Made by a program: the position numbers and the translations under genes. From NCBI GenBank assembly GCA_024643325.1, contig JAHEND010000001.1, forward strand, positions 1 through 64,000: a stretch of 64,000 nt of DNA, written 5' to 3'. Shown in pieces: positions 11,879-18,691 of this stretch. The notes below the pieces were generated by a model. The model did not search any database, had not been told where the DNA came from, and was given only the letters and a program-made list of their open reading frames with translations. The stretch's first letter is position 1. Each line of letters starts with the position of its first letter. This DNA comes from Sediminicola sp. (GTDB lineage: Bacteria; Bacteroidota; Bacteroidia; Flavobacteriales; Flavobacteriaceae).

Positions 11879-11923
11879 GTATCCTTTTAGAATTAGAACA
11901 AATCACGCTATGAAATTGTTTAA

Positions 11924-11959
11924 AATCACAAAGCCTTAAGGGGCTTTGTGATTTTTTTT
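11924..11959 (+). terminator. Intrinsic terminator after the marR-yceI unit
   Basis: AATCACAAAGCC-ttaag-GGGCTTTGTGATTTTTTTT. Confidence 0.9.
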
Positions 11960-11990
11960 GCTCAAAGCTTTTATATTCTGTAAGGTTTAC

Positions 11991-11998
11991 TATATTTG
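11991..11998 (+). promoter_or_regulatory. Putative -7 promoter box of the trp operon
   Basis: TATATTTG, fits Bacteroidota TAnnTTTG; 4 nt before the leader-peptide ATG. Confidence 0.55.
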
Positions 11999-12002
11999 GT
12001 AC

Positions 12003-12059
12003 ATGATTCAAAATAATACAAACAATTGGTGGTGGAACAACTTACAACGTACGCTGTGA
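12003..12059 (+). CDS. trpL: trp operon leader peptide
   Basis: ATG ATT CAA AAT AAT ACA AAC AAT TGG TGG TGG AAC AAC TTA CAA CGT ACG CTG TGA = MIQNNTNNWWWNNLQRTL; precedes a terminator hairpin and trpE. Confidence 0.9.
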   Translation: MIQNNTNNWWWNNLQRTL

Positions 12060-12084
12060 GCTAAGCATTACTTTGATATATTTT

Positions 12085-12115
12085 AAAGGCTTGTCTTCAC
12101 AGACAAGCCTTTTTA
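12085..12115 (+). terminator. trp attenuator terminator hairpin
   Basis: AGGCTTGTCT (12087-12096) tcac AGACAAGCCT (12101-12110), flanked by AA/TT, followed by TTTTATTTT. Confidence 0.88.
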
Positions 12116-12182
12116 TTTTCAATATCACTTGATCTGATATTATTTTTGAAATACCAATAGGAAAGACAGAAAGAAACAAATT

Positions 12183-13583
12183 ATGAGTTACGCTTTAAAA
12201 ACCCATTACAAAAAAATTCTTGCAGACACCATTACACCTGTGAGCGTCTATTTAAAAGTAAGAGACCGTTACCCAGCCAGTATTTTATTGGAGAGTAGTG
12301 ATTACCACGCAAACGACAATAGTTTTTCATATATCTGTTTTAACCCCATTGCACACATTGAGGTAAAAGACCGTCAGATTACAAAAGCATATCCAGATGG
12401 CAGCACACAAATAACCCCTATTACATCAGAAACTGATATTCCTGCTACACTCACGGCTTTTTCAAAGGAGTTCAATAGTGAAAAACAAGATTTTAAATTC
12501 ATTACACAAGGATTGTTTGGTTTTATGACCTATGACGCCGTACAATATTATGAAGATATTCAGATCGCTAAAAAAGAAGGGGGACAAGACCTTCCTGAAT
12601 TATATTATGCGGTATACCAGAACGTTATTGCCATTAACCATTTTAACAACGAAGCCTATATTTTTGCGCACTGCTATGACCAGCCCAGTAATGTAGCGAC
12701 TATAGAACAATTAATTGCTGTTAAAAACTTTGCCACCTACCCTTTTAAAACCGAAGGCGAACCAACTATTAATATAGAGGACGAAGATTTCAAAACACTG
12801 GTAGAAACGGCCAAGAAACATTGCCAAAGAGGAGACGTTTTCCAGTTGGTACTTTCCAGAAGATTCACCCAAAAATTTAGTGGAGATGAGTTTAATGTTT
12901 ACCGAGCGCTAAGAGCTGTAAATCCCTCTCCATACCTATTTTACTTTGACTATGGGAATTTCAAAATTTTTGGGAGTTCTCCAGAAGCACAGCTAGTAGT
13001 CAAAGATCAGAAAGCAGAAATCCATCCCATTGCAGGTACCTTTAAAAGAACTGGAAACGATGAAAAAGACGCCCTACTCGCCAAGGAACTCACAGAAGAC
13101 CACAAAGAAAATGCAGAGCATGTCATGCTAGTAGACCTAGCGAGAAACGACCTCAGCAGGCATGGAAAAATGGTCAGGGTAGAAAACTATCGAGAGGTAC
13201 AGTTTTTTTCACATGTCATTCACTTGGTATCTAAAGTCACTGGTATAAAAAAAGCAGACACACCTACTATGAATATAGTGGCAGACACATTTCCTGCTGG
13301 GACCCTCAGCGGTGCGCCTAAGCACAAAGCCATGGAGCTTATTGAAAAATATGAACCTACCCCAAGGGGCTACTACGGAGGCGCCATTGGCTTTATGGAT
13401 TTTGAAGGTAACTTTAACCACGCCATCATGATCAGAACCTTTTTAAGCAAGAACCATCAATTACAATACCAAGCGGGCGCAGGAATTGTTGCTGCTTCAG
13501 ATGCAGCTTCTGAATTGCAAGAAACCTACAATAAGTTAGGAGCACTCACCAAAGCATTGTCATTGGCAGAAGATATTAAATAA
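12183..13583 (+). CDS. trpE: Anthranilate synthase component I
   Basis: 466 aa; GDVFQLVLSRRF, HPIAGTFKRTG, FPAGTLSGAPKHKAMELI. Confidence 0.97.
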   Translation: MSYALKTHYKKILADTITPVSVYLKVRDRYPASILLESSDYHANDNSFSYICFNPIAHIEVKDRQITKAYPDGSTQITPITSETDIPATLTAFSKEFNSEKQDFKFITQGLFGFMTYDAVQYYEDIQIAKKEGGQDLPELYYAVYQNVIAINHFNNEAYIFAHCYDQPSNVATIEQLIAVKNFATYPFKTEGEPTINIEDEDFKTLVETAKKHCQRGDVFQLVLSRRFTQKFSGDEFNVYRALRAVNPSPYLFYFDYGNFKIFGSSPEAQLVVKDQKAEIHPIAGTFKRTGNDEKDALLAKELTEDHKENAEHVMLVDLARNDLSRHGKMVRVENYREVQFFSHVIHLVSKVTGIKKADTPTMNIVADTFPAGTLSGAPKHKAMELIEKYEPTPRGYYGGAIGFMDFEGNFNHAIMIRTFLSKNHQLQYQAGAGIVAASDAASELQETYNKLGALTKALSLAEDIK

Positions 13584-13618: not shown

Positions 13619-14245
13619 ATGACACACATATTACTCATAGACAATTACGACTCATTTACTTATAACCTAGTGCATTACTTAGAGGAATTAGGCGCTCAGG
13701 TAACGGTTCGTAGAAACGACAAATTAAACATAGAAGAAGTGGCTGCTTTTTCCCATATTGTATTGTCCCCTGGACCTGGTATTCCAGACGAGGCAGGACT
13801 ACTCAAAGAAATTATTGCCACCTACGCTACAACTAAAAAAATTCTAGGGGTCTGTCTAGGACAACAAGCCATTGCAGAGGTATTTGGAGGACGCTTAGAA
13901 AATTTAAGCGAAGTATACCACGGGATCGCAACACCAATAGAAATTATAGATCCCCAAGCGACATTGTTTAAGGACTTACCTACTGAGGTGGTCGTAGGGA
14001 GGTATCATTCTTGGGTGGTATCTGAAGATCTACCAGAATCTTTGAAAGTGACTGCCAGGGACCATAAGGGACAAATCATGGCAATTGAACACAAAGACTA
14101 CCCAGTACATGCTGTACAGTTTCACCCAGAATCCATTCTAACCCCTAGTGGAAAGAAAATGCTGGCCAACTGGTTGGGAGTCTCCTGGGAATTTAAGCCA
14201 GAAGAAAAAAATGTACTAGTCCCTAATTCAACAAAAAGCTACTAA
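13619..14245 (+). CDS. trpG: Anthranilate synthase component II (glutamine amidotransferase)
   Basis: 208 aa; ILLIDNYDSFTYNLVHYLEELG, ILGVCLGQQAIAEVFGG, AVQFHPESILTPSG. Confidence 0.97.
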   Translation: MTHILLIDNYDSFTYNLVHYLEELGAQVTVRRNDKLNIEEVAAFSHIVLSPGPGIPDEAGLLKEIIATYATTKKILGVCLGQQAIAEVFGGRLENLSEVYHGIATPIEIIDPQATLFKDLPTEVVVGRYHSWVVSEDLPESLKVTARDHKGQIMAIEHKDYPVHAVQFHPESILTPSGKKMLANWLGVSWEFKPEEKNVLVPNSTKSY

Positions 14246-14254
14246 AAATTGAAT

Positions 14255-15241
14255 ATGAAAGAAATACTCAACAGACTCATCCAGCACGAAGTGCTGAGCA
14301 GACAAGAATCTAAAGACATACTCGTAGGGATTGCCAACAAAGCTTACAACGAATCTGAAATTGCCTCTTTTCTTACCGTGTATATGATGCGTAGTATTCA
14401 ACTAGAAGAATTAGAGGGGTTTAGAGACGCACTTTTAGAATTATGCCTGGCAGTAGATCTTTCCGCTTATGAGCCTATAGATTTATGTGGCACTGGAGGA
14501 GATGGAAAAGATACGTTTAATATCTCTACCCTAGCCTCTTTTGTGACGGCTGCTAGTGGGATTAAAGTAACTAAACACGGGAATTATGGCGTATCTTCTT
14601 CATGTGGGAGTAGTAATGTTATGGAAGCATTGGGTATTAAATTCACCAATGACAAAGATTATTTAGAAAAAGCCCTAGACCAAGTAGGGATCTGTGTGTT
14701 ACACGCCCCCTTGTTCCACCCGGCCATGAAGCAGGTAGCGCCCATTAGAAAGGCTTTAGGGGTCAAAACATTCTTTAATATGTTAGGTCCTATGGTAAAC
14801 CCTGCTTTTCCTACCCATCAAATGGTAGGAGTATTTAATTTAGAACTAGCTAGAATTTACGGATACCTGTATCAAAAAACAAACAAGCAATACAGTATTG
14901 TACATGCCTTAGATGGATACGATGAAGTGTCTCTGACAGGGGCAACAAAAGTCATTACCAGGGCAAATGAAATGGTTTTAGATCCTGCTCATTTCAATGT
15001 AAAAACCTTACATGCAAAAGACATTGCCGGAGGGGAATCAGTGGCTTCTGCCGCAGCCATTTTTGTAGATATTCTCAGTGGAAAAGGCAGTGAGGCGCAA
15101 AACAATGTGGTTTGTGCCAATGCAGCCCTAGCTATCAATACAGTTCAAAACAACGGCATTCAAACCGCTTTTGAACAGGCCAAAGAAACCCTATTATCTG
15201 GTGCAGCACTCAAAAAATTACAGCAATTACAAGCTTTATAA
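14255..15241 (+). CDS. trpD: Anthranilate phosphoribosyltransferase
   Basis: DLCGTGGDGKDTFNISTLASFVTAASGIKVTKHGNYGVSSSCGSSNVMEALG. Confidence 0.97.
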   Translation: MKEILNRLIQHEVLSRQESKDILVGIANKAYNESEIASFLTVYMMRSIQLEELEGFRDALLELCLAVDLSAYEPIDLCGTGGDGKDTFNISTLASFVTAASGIKVTKHGNYGVSSSCGSSNVMEALGIKFTNDKDYLEKALDQVGICVLHAPLFHPAMKQVAPIRKALGVKTFFNMLGPMVNPAFPTHQMVGVFNLELARIYGYLYQKTNKQYSIVHALDGYDEVSLTGATKVITRANEMVLDPAHFNVKTLHAKDIAGGESVASAAAIFVDILSGKGSEAQNNVVCANAALAINTVQNNGIQTAFEQAKETLLSGAALKKLQQLQAL

Positions 15242-16027
15242 ATGAACATTTTAGACAAAATAATAGCCGACAAAAAGATAGAAGTAGCCCTTAAAAAAGG
15301 CCTAGTTCCCACCAAATACCTGGAACAGCACCCCTTGTTTGAACGTCATGTAAACTCTATGGTTGCCCAGATAAAACAAAGCAATAGTGGTATTATCGCC
15401 GAGCACAAAAGACGCTCTCCTTCAAAAGATGTTATTAATAATACGCTCAAAGTCCCCGCAGTGGTAAAAGGCTATGAAAAGGCAGGCGTTTGTGGTATTT
15501 CTGTACTTACAGATGGGCCCTATTTTGGAGGGGCGCTTGAAGATCTTTTGATTGCCAGGGCCGCTGTAGAGACGCCCCTTTTGAGAAAGGAATTCATTGT
15601 AGATCCCTACCAAATTATAGAAGCTAAGGCCCATGGGGCCGATGCCATTTTACTCATAGCTGCAGTACTCACAAGAGCAGAAATTCAGAGCTTATCTAAC
15701 CTCGCACAGTCGCTGGGTTTAGAGGTGCTTTTAGAAGTTCACAACTTAGAAGAATTGGAAAAATCAATTATGCCATCTTTAGACCTCATAGGGGTGAACA
15801 ACAGAAACCTAAAGACTTTTGAGGTGAGTTTGGACACCTCAAAAACACTCGCTACTTCTATCCCCTCAGATTTTGTAAAGATTTCTGAAAGTGGCATTAG
15901 TGAAGTCTCTGCCATTAAAGACTTAAAAACGTATGGGTATAGCGGCTTTCTAGTCGGTGAAAACTTTATGAAGACAAATGACCCCGGAGCTGCAGCCTTA
16001 GCATTTATAAAACAAATAGAAAGCTAA
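15242..16027 (+). CDS. trpC: Indole-3-glycerol phosphate synthase
   Basis: 261 aa; IIAEHKRRSPSKDVIN, EVLLEVHNLEELEK, LIGVNNRNLKTFEVSLDTS. Confidence 0.97.
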   Translation: MNILDKIIADKKIEVALKKGLVPTKYLEQHPLFERHVNSMVAQIKQSNSGIIAEHKRRSPSKDVINNTLKVPAVVKGYEKAGVCGISVLTDGPYFGGALEDLLIARAAVETPLLRKEFIVDPYQIIEAKAHGADAILLIAAVLTRAEIQSLSNLAQSLGLEVLLEVHNLEELEKSIMPSLDLIGVNNRNLKTFEVSLDTSKTLATSIPSDFVKISESGISEVSAIKDLKTYGYSGFLVGENFMKTNDPGAAALAFIKQIES

Positions 16028-16028
16028 T

Positions 16029-16730
16029 ATGGGAGGTTCTTATACACATATGCCCTTTGAAACGCCTAAATTGAAAGTTTGCGGCATGAGGGTCCCGGAA
16101 AATATTAGTGCTGTGGCGGCACTAACACCTCATTATATGGGTTTTATTTTTTGGAAACCCTCCAAACGGTATATTAAAAATACTATTCCTAAAATAGATC
16201 CCAGTATTCAAAAAATAGGCGTTTTTGTAAAGGCGAGCCCTGATTTCATTGTAAAAACAGTCCAAGAAAATGATTTACAAGGGGTGCAATTGCACGGAGG
16301 TGAAACCCCAGAAGATTGCAAAACAGTACTTGAGGCTTGGGAAAAACAACCCGACGCTAACAAGACACCTCTGATACTTATTAAAGCCTTTTCAGTGAAA
16401 GACGAATTTGACTTTTCCTTATTGGCACCTTACGAAGCCTATTGTGATTTTTTCCTTTTTGACACCAAAGGAAAACTCCCCGGAGGCAATGGTTATACCT
16501 TTTCTTGGGAACTTTTGGCCGCATATCCAAGCAATACGCCATACTTTTTGAGTGGTGGCATTGGTTTAGCACAAGCAACTGATTTAGCTAAATTTTTAGA
16601 AAGCAAAGCCTCAAAAATGTGTGCTGTTATAGATGTAAATAGTACTTTTGAAACAGAAGACTATACTAAAAACACCCAGGATTTAAACCTATTTATAAAC
16701 GCCTTAAAAAATAGATTCTCTACAGAATAA
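16029..16730 (+). CDS. trpF: Phosphoribosylanthranilate isomerase
   Basis: KVCGMRVPENISAVAALTPHYMGFIFWKPSKRYI; VQLHGGETPEDC. Confidence 0.95.
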   Translation: MGGSYTHMPFETPKLKVCGMRVPENISAVAALTPHYMGFIFWKPSKRYIKNTIPKIDPSIQKIGVFVKASPDFIVKTVQENDLQGVQLHGGETPEDCKTVLEAWEKQPDANKTPLILIKAFSVKDEFDFSLLAPYEAYCDFFLFDTKGKLPGGNGYTFSWELLAAYPSNTPYFLSGGIGLAQATDLAKFLESKASKMCAVIDVNSTFETEDYTKNTQDLNLFINALKNRFSTE

Positions 16731-16736
16731 AACGCT

Positions 16737-17924
16737 ATGAAAAAGACTTACCACGTAGATGAAAATGGATATTACGGTTCCTTTGGAGGCGCCTATATTC
16801 CTGAAATGCTATTTCCCAATACTGAAGAACTCAGGACCCAATATCTTGACATTATGGGCTCTGAAAGTTTCAAAAAAGAATTTGACGCCCTTCTTAAGGA
16901 TTATGTAGGGAGACCTACTCCACTCTATTTTGCCAAGAGACTCTCAGCGCTTTACAACACTAAGATCTATCTTAAAAGAGAAGATTTATGCCATACTGGA
17001 GCGCATAAGGTAAACAATACCATTGGCCAAATCCTAATGGCTAAAAGACTGGGTAAAACAAGAATCATTGCAGAGACCGGAGCTGGGCAACACGGTGTAG
17101 CCACTGCTACTGTTTGTGCGCTAATGGGCATGGAATGTGTGGTCTATATGGGGGCCGTAGACATTAAAAGACAGGCACCAAACGTCGCTAGAATGAAAAT
17201 GCTAGGAGCTACTGTTCGGGCCGCTGAATCTGGCAGTAAGACACTTAAAGATGCGACCAATGAGGCCATAAGAGATTGGATAAACAACCCAGTGAACACC
17301 CATTATATTATTGGGTCTGTTGTAGGGCCACACCCTTATCCAGATATGGTAGCTCGTTTCCAATCGGTGATTTCTCAAGAGATCAAAAGCCAGTTATTGG
17401 AAAAAGAAGGACGAGAAAATCCAGACCATGTAGTGGCCTGTGTGGGCGGAGGAAGTAATGCTGCAGGAGCTTATTACCATTTTTTAGACACCCCTGAAGT
17501 CAATATTATAGCGGTAGAGGCCGCAGGCAAAGGAATTCACACCGGAGAAAGTGCTGCTACCTCTGCACTGGGAAAAGAAGGCATTATTCACGGAAGTAAA
17601 ACCCTATTGATGCAAACCCAAGACGGGCAAATTACGGAGCCTTATTCTATCTCTGCAGGCTTGGATTACCCTGGAGTAGGCCCAATGCATGCGCATTTGT
17701 TTGAATCTAAGCGTGCCGAATTTATTTCAGTAACGGATCAGGATGCTATGGCTGCCGGATTACTGGTCTCTAAAATGGAGGGTATTATCCCTGCCATTGA
17801 GACCTCTCATGCCTTTGCCATTTTTGAAAACAGACCCTTTGGTAAAGAAGAAGTGGTGGTGGTTAACTTATCTGGCCGTGGAGATAAAGATTTGAATACC
17901 TATATAGATTATTTTAAATTATGA
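16737..17924 (+). CDS. trpB: Tryptophan synthase beta chain
   Basis: 395 aa; [47 protein letters not shown]. Confidence 0.98.
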
Positions 17925-18691
17925 GTAACAGAATAAATCAAAGAATGGCAGACCCTAAAAAAGTCTTGTCCATCTATTTTACGGCAGGCTATCCTGAAAA
18001 AGAAGACACGGTGAAGGTCTTGAGTCAACTGCAAGAAGCGGGCGTAGATCTAGTAGAAATAGGACTTCCATTTAGCGACCCTTTGGCAGACGGCCCCACC
18101 ATTCAGGACAGCTCAACTACTGCCCTAAAAAATGGCATGAACACTCAGTTGCTCTTTGATCAACTAAAAGACATTCGAAAAAGTATTCACATTCCTCTAA
18201 TTGTAATGGGCTATTTTAACCCCATGCTACAATACGGCGTAGACGCCTTTTTGAATCAGTGTGCCCAAATAGGAATCGACGGGATTATTATGCCAGACCT
18301 GCCCTTAGCAGAATATGAGCAGCACTATAAAAAGCTTTACGAAAAACACGGCATAAAAAATATTTTTTTAATCACCCCTCAAACTTCAGATACACGAATT
18401 AAAGCGATTGACCAGGCGTCAGACAGTTTTATTTATCTAGTGAGTACGGCAAGTGTGACGGGAAGCAAAAGTGGTTTTGGAGAAGAACAAGAAGCATATT
18501 TTGAAAGAATTGCCCAAATGAATCTCAAAAACCCCTTAGTGGTTGGTTTCGGAATTCATGACGCAAATACGTTCTCTCAAGCTACAAAACATACCTCTGG
18601 AGCCATTATAGGCTCTGCTTTTATTAAGACTATTACTGAAAAAGGACTTGCGGGAATAAGCCCGTTCATAAAAAGTCTACGACCAGACTAG
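17921..18691 (+). CDS. trpA: Tryptophan synthase alpha chain
   Basis: 256 aa; [23 protein letters not shown]; 4-nt ATGA overlap with trpB. Confidence 0.97.

Follow-up and report, generated by a model that had tools for sequence, protein, structure and literature searches.

A predicted tryptophan-responsive transcription attenuator with a leader-to-loop antiterminator upstream of trpEGDCFBA in Sediminicola sp. (Flavobacteriaceae)

In the window, by which we mean the whole stretch of 64,000 nucleotides of the Sediminicola sp. contig JAHEND010000001.1 that was analysed, the trpE gene (anthranilate synthase component I) lies at positions 12183 to 13583 on the forward strand and is followed by trpG, trpD, trpC, trpF, trpB and trpA, in that order and on the same strand, at 13619-18691, which is the gene order trpEGDCFBA that a preliminary description of this DNA had read from the letters. 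The best match of the trpE product was TIGR00564 at 431 bits, a score under the family cut-off, and both its position and its relatives concur with the assignment. Upstream, on the forward strand, an intrinsic terminator with a 15-pair stem and a T tail (11922-11955) closes the preceding gene and separates it from the trp leader. The leader contains an open reading frame (ORF) of 18 codons missed by the ORF track, found on the forward strand exactly where the preliminary description had placed it, at 12003-12059, and recognised both from the sequence and from its relatives; it encodes MIQNNTNNWWWNNLQRTL and ends with a TGA stop codon at 12057-12059. Three tandem Trp codons, TGG TGG TGG, occupy 12027-12035 of the same strand and form the proposed ribosome stall site. 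Such an ORF had been held unlikely to arise by chance, and shuffling the 300 nucleotides 5' of trpE in the window 5000 times, with dinucleotides preserved, never produced one.

Between this ORF and trpE lies a second intrinsic terminator with a U-rich tail (12085-12119, forward strand), in which 12085-12096 pairs with 12101-12112 to form a stem of 12 perfect pairs closed by a UCAC loop. It is the strong rho-independent hairpin of the preliminary description, located 27 nucleotides past the stop codon when counted from AGGC, and every one of its pairs is kept in 100% of the cells among 76 distinct aligned relatives. The 1:2 hairpin proposed at the same time also exists. Its strand 1, CUUACA (12041-12046, forward strand), forms six pairs, one of them G-U, with UGUGAG (12055-12060), as judged from folding and from the relatives. 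In the aligned relatives this hairpin, CUUACR with YGUGAG, is paired in 89% of the cells and shows 12 double changes, the outer pair occurring as CG, UA, AU or GC. The leader as a whole folds with a z score of -3.9, and none of 200 shuffles was equally stable.

The upstream regions of trpE in related genomes were then searched for short ORFs with runs of Trp codons (WWW or WW). A WWW ORF was found within 560 nucleotides upstream of trpE in 77 of the 80 named Flavobacteriaceae relatives identified through TrpE (shuffled, 0), so the conserved W-runs that the preliminary description had proposed to look for are present there. In a phylum sample of 80 genomes, 59 of them from outside the Flavobacteriaceae, 64 genomes carried a WWW ORF within 300 nucleotides (shuffled, 0.05) and 71 a WW ORF within the same distance (shuffled, 0.65). 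In an alignment of 77 leaders, no variation was seen in the promoter box discussed below, in TGGTGG or in the greater part of the terminator, and the leader peptide varies freely among the relatives outside N(T)WWW(N)NLR. Leaders L015, L032, L038, L041 and L044 (Flagellimonas/Muricauda) carry approximately 340 extra bases between the terminator and trpE. The first part of this insert is a similar inverted repeat, which in L015 reads TTTCCGCGAAGGCGGAAATC; a possible coding sequence for ATGAGTTTTTATGTC... comes next, and the whole has the look of a small gene or a repeat element that was inserted.

Directly in front of the leader ORF lies a sequence, TATATTTG (11991-11998, forward strand), that corresponds to the Bacteroidota sigma-A -7 box with the consensus TAnnTTTG (PMC9723704), identified from the sequence itself as well as from its relatives. 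The box ends 4 nucleotides 5' of the leader AUG. As the sigma-A box TAnnTTTG is found at -12 to -5 in F. psychrophilum (PMC9723704) and the box-to-start spacing is 4-5 nucleotides in F. johnsoniae (PMC6847099), the predicted transcription start is the A of the leader AUG itself (12003, forward strand), and the AUG is predicted to lie at, or at most 1 nucleotide from, the 5' end of the transcript. Because flavobacterial transcription begins at this distance from the box, the leader peptide is probably translated from a leaderless mRNA. In genomes that appear Flavobacterium-like, an assignment to genus that is a guess, the gap between box and AUG is 17-18 nucleotides, unlike the 4 nucleotides of the window, which means that the leaderless layout does not hold everywhere. 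These longer gaps would also suit an ordinary leadered mRNA, initiated further upstream from another promoter, for which the closeness of box and AUG would be incidental and which would leave attenuation unchanged. The window has no clear -33 element at the usual spacing, and only a minority of flavobacterial mRNAs are leaderless, 5.5% in F. psychrophilum (PMC9723704), while 87% of the leaders in F. johnsoniae are longer than 10 nucleotides (PMC6847099). However, the TAT.TTT of the box is invariant across the 77 aligned relatives and the box ends 4-9 nucleotides before the AUG, corresponding to a predicted 5' UTR of 0-5 nucleotides, in 67 of 79 close relatives; moreover, the terminator of the preceding gene ends only about 35 nucleotides 5' of the box, which leaves little space for a second promoter. 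We therefore consider a leadered mRNA unlikely, although it deserves to be kept in mind.

The antiterminator had appeared unclear by eye in the preliminary description, which offered only a weak pairing of AAGC (12063-12066) with GCUU (12089-12092). These four pairs can form, but they make up only the inner portion of a more extended antiterminator; a helix of 7 bp that joins the region of the stop codon to the terminator loop had been overlooked. On the 5' side of the antiterminator is strand 2, CUGUGAG.C.UAAGC (12054-12066, forward strand), which holds the leader stop codon; on its 3' side is strand 3, GCUUG.UC.UUCACAG (12089-12102, forward strand), which consists of the 5' arm and the loop of the terminator. 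Both strands were identified by complementarity and folding, CUGUGAG pairing with UUCACAG and UAAGC with GCUUG. A helper hairpin inside the antiterminator (12071-12088, forward strand, 12071-12076 with 12083-12088) is part of the minimum-energy fold of a transcript ending at 12104.

In the aligned leaders, the bases around the stop codon and those of the terminator loop are reverse complements of each other. In most Flavobacteriaceae (GU)CGUGA is combined with UCACG(AC), where the window has CUGUGAG with UUCACAG, and Dokdonia has CGUAAG with CUUACG, its stop codon having changed from UGA to UAA along with the loop. A further candidate, L068, was rejected as a CGTAA variant, since it also has a CGTGA that matches its loop, and was not counted as a change. 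Clear paired changes were seen in only two Flavobacteriaceae lineages, the strand being highly conserved, and L001, the closest relative, retains five of the six leader-to-loop pairs. Within the family, column covariation is weak: the strand hardly varies, and the window and L001 lie one column out of register in the automatic alignment. With so few independent changes inside the Flavobacteriaceae, the real evidence is the phylum-wide comparison.

Across the phylum, complementary pairs of leader and terminator were found with unlike sequences, such as GUGAUAAC/GUUAUCAC (L172), CUCAGUGA/UCACUGAG (L159), GAUGAACA/UGUUCAUC (L141), GGACCGGUGGGCG/CGCCCACCGGUCU (L175) and AUGUGGC/GCCACAU, the corresponding pair of the window being CUGUGA/UCACAG. 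In a swap control, each of 37 dissimilar leaders was given the terminator of another genome, with 20,000 permutations. The mean duplex energy of the 3' part of the leader was -16.7 kcal/mol with its own terminator versus -10.8 kcal/mol with swapped ones (z = -12.2; 0 of 20,000 permutations), and a contiguous-helix score likewise separated own from swapped terminators (z = 8.5). Tested singly, 24 of the 37 leaders beat 95% of their shuffles. The pairing in the window is only modestly above shuffles (p = 0.025-0.045), so the claim of an antiterminator is carried by the comparative test, from which we conclude that the pairing of leader and terminator is maintained phylum-wide with different sequences. 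A fixed position of strand 2, about 15-20 nucleotides past the last Trp codon, was also considered and dropped, as swapped terminators gave a similar spread, and no claim is made for it. The pairing of leader and terminator is far longer in L172 and L175 (13 bp), and a few distant members of the phylum (L169, L172, L174 and L175) have W runs that are interrupted or longer (WLWWW, WWWLW, WWWW), which suggests lineage-specific tuning.

The nascent transcript from 12003 onwards was folded with the ribosome footprint masked and with several 3' ends. With the RNA ending at 12107 and the second or third Trp codon in the A site, the probability of the antiterminator was 0.83-0.84 and that of the terminator 0.00-0.01. 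The respective values were 0.68 and 0.11 with the first Trp codon in the A site, and 0.00 and 0.56 with the ribosome at the stop codon. Folding with and without ribosome masking had been proposed in the preliminary description, and the expected switch was thus obtained at this transcript end: in computation, the antiterminator and the terminator are mutually exclusive, the former becoming available when the ribosome stalls at the Trp codons and being hidden when it sits at the stop codon. When the RNA was free to 12112, the terminator was favoured at equilibrium in every ribosome state, and in the finished RNA without a ribosome the 1:2 hairpin reached a probability of 0.99 and the terminator 0.95. 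Equilibrium folding of the full leader was discarded as a test of the switch, as it gave the terminator regardless of the ribosome position; such folds cannot display the switch, and truncated transcripts are needed. Since the terminator is always preferred at equilibrium, the switch must be kinetic. The outcome is set kinetically in other attenuators too.

Taken together, the leader is best explained as encoding a trp leader peptide within a ribosome-mediated transcription attenuator of the trpEGDCFBA operon that is very probably off when tryptophan is plentiful; the preliminary description had made the same proposal and staked it on the presence of the WWW ORF and the hairpin in relatives, where both recur phylum-wide. 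Transcription would begin at or beside the A of the leader AUG. With the RNA polymerase just ahead, a ribosome would load on this 5'-terminal AUG. When charged Trp-tRNA is scarce, we infer that the ribosome stalls at the WWW codons, where it covers strand 1; strand 2 would then be free to pair with the emerging 5' arm and loop of the terminator, so that the polymerase would continue into trpE. When tryptophan is plentiful, the ribosome would reach the UGA and, as this codon is part of strand 2, would mask that strand; the 12-bp terminator would form and transcription would end near 12112-12120. The 1:2 hairpin and the terminator would be the favoured final fold of a leader that carries no ribosome.

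The nearest leaderless precedent for this layout is the trpLE(G) transcript of Sinorhizobium meliloti, whose leader RNA starts at the AUG of an ORF with Trp codons and is treated as a leaderless mRNA (PMC7298713); it differs from the window in phylum and in sequence, and a role in trans is known there only. By analogy with rnTrpL and peTrpL, the terminated leader RNA (about 115 nucleotides, predicted to be a tiny leaderless mRNA) or the 18-residue peptide might also act in trans in Sediminicola, as the layout predicted here matches that of S. meliloti in its leaderless trpL and its short RNA product of termination (PMC7298713). This seems improbable given the free variation of the peptide outside its core, the conserved letters of which are explained by RNA pairing. 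The preference for the terminator at equilibrium could also be taken to mean that it is constitutive and sets a low basal expression of the trp genes, the WWW peptide being a relic or serving re-initiation or coupling without any sensing of tryptophan. A constitutive terminator, however, needs no leader 3' end that tracks its loop, and the phylum-wide pairing with unrelated sequences, together with the invariant WWW, makes this very improbable. Other tryptophan sensors (T-box RNA, TRAP protein or a Trp-binding RNA) do control trp operons in Firmicutes, but one in this leader, with the ORF only secondary, is hardly credible, as the Rfam scan gave no T-box or other trp-related family besides RF01692, the leader is only about 110 nucleotides long without a run of (G/U)AG repeats, and the ORF sets the position of the antiterminator strand.

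The trpL leader of E. coli is a short ORF with tandem Trp codons, followed by the 1:2, 2:3 and 3:4 pairing logic and a terminator before trpE. The attenuator proposed here has these features in common with E. coli trpL (RF00513). Unlike it, the window has no Shine-Dalgarno sequence and its AUG is predicted to be at the 5' end; its strand 2 holds the stop codon, and its strand 3 is formed by the loop and the 5' arm of the terminator. The Rfam scan gave no match to RF00513 in the window up to an E value of 10, and no Trp repressor (PF01371) was found in the organism's own genome, which is 89.7% complete.

In the same scan, the Bacteroid-trp family RF01692 ("Bacteroidete tryptophan peptide leader RNA") matched 11983-12095 with 40.3 bits (E = 0.001-0.002), below its curated cut-off of 49 bits. 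Among orthologous leaders, 15 of 20 reach or exceed this cut-off, including that of L001 (52.3 bits), whose TrpE is 88% identical. The family occurs in the same phylum and at the same place upstream of trpE, has a W-rich ORF and can be aligned with the window from the -7 box to the 5' arm of the terminator. The alignment of 77 leaders, which share the orthologous position, includes RF01692 members above the threshold, and on this comparative basis the window leader is orthologous to RF01692. The structure of the family model is one long hairpin that ends within the 5' arm of the terminator, with neither the terminator nor the leader-to-loop antiterminator. The model starts about 20 nucleotides before the leader AUG, and its first 20 or so positions are promoter DNA, including the -7 box. 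Several pairs of its consensus hairpin are marked as non-standard in the window; the 1:2 part is formed. A search of 150 genomes of the phylum with RF01692 gave 13 matches, 11 of them above the cut-off, and inspection anchored on TrpE was far more sensitive (WW leaders in 71 of 80 genomes). The cut-off misses the window copy as well as five of the 20 orthologues.

The RF01692 motif dates from 2010, when it was described as a probable cis-regulatory RNA in Bacteroidetes (Weinberg et al., PMC2864571), and the transcriptome of F. psychrophilum gave strong clues to leader-peptide attenuation upstream of amino-acid operons (PMC9723704). F. psychrophilum belongs to the Flavobacteriaceae, like the organism studied here, and the part of that article available to us names neither a trp leader nor an antiterminator. 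The preliminary description had called the element unannotated, and this holds for the copy in the window, but in view of the orthology with RF01692 and of the F. psychrophilum report its kind is already known. The present analysis adds an antiterminator that covaries across the phylum, a probable leaderless start of translation and the partial reach of the published model, although the antiterminator may already be drawn in the supplement of PMC2864571 or PMC9723704.

Two other likely leaders were seen in the same genome. On the reverse strand of contig C15 of this genome (G000), upstream of hisG (L180), a TACTTTTG box stands 10 nucleotides ahead of MTQTHTHHHFIYCAQAR, a likely his leader peptide, and a terminator, AAACCCGTTTGAGTAATCAAACGGGTTTTTATTTTTTT, lies between this leader and hisG. 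On the reverse strand of contig C2, upstream of the prephenate dehydratase gene pheA (L181), there is a likely phe leader peptide, MTLSTNFWNRFYFYFYFNRSTGLF, with a terminator, GTCCCGCTGTTGCGGGATTTTTTTTTT, right before pheA; it may be the third attenuator in this genome of approximately 2 Mb. Thr and ilv leaders were not recognised in this genome, where both homoserine-dehydrogenase loci ran past the examined sequence.

Textbook attenuation requires fast loading of the ribosome on the leader ORF. Since the Bacteroidota mostly lack Shine-Dalgarno initiation, the layout described here explains in specific and testable terms how this loading may be achieved: if it is true, initiation on a bare 5' AUG would load the sensing ribosome early enough to trail the RNA polymerase without a Shine-Dalgarno sequence. 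The antiterminator would supply the missing half of the RF01692 mechanism. We consider it an even question whether the Bacteroidota share one phylum-wide trp attenuator, with a leaderless 5'-terminal AUG in much of the Flavobacteriaceae and an antiterminator that joins the 3' end of the leader to the terminator loop while its sequence has wholly changed. The published model recovers only part of this device, which may be nearly universal in the trp operons of the phylum, and annotation pipelines could call trpL, the leader gene, as well as the terminator that is regulated.
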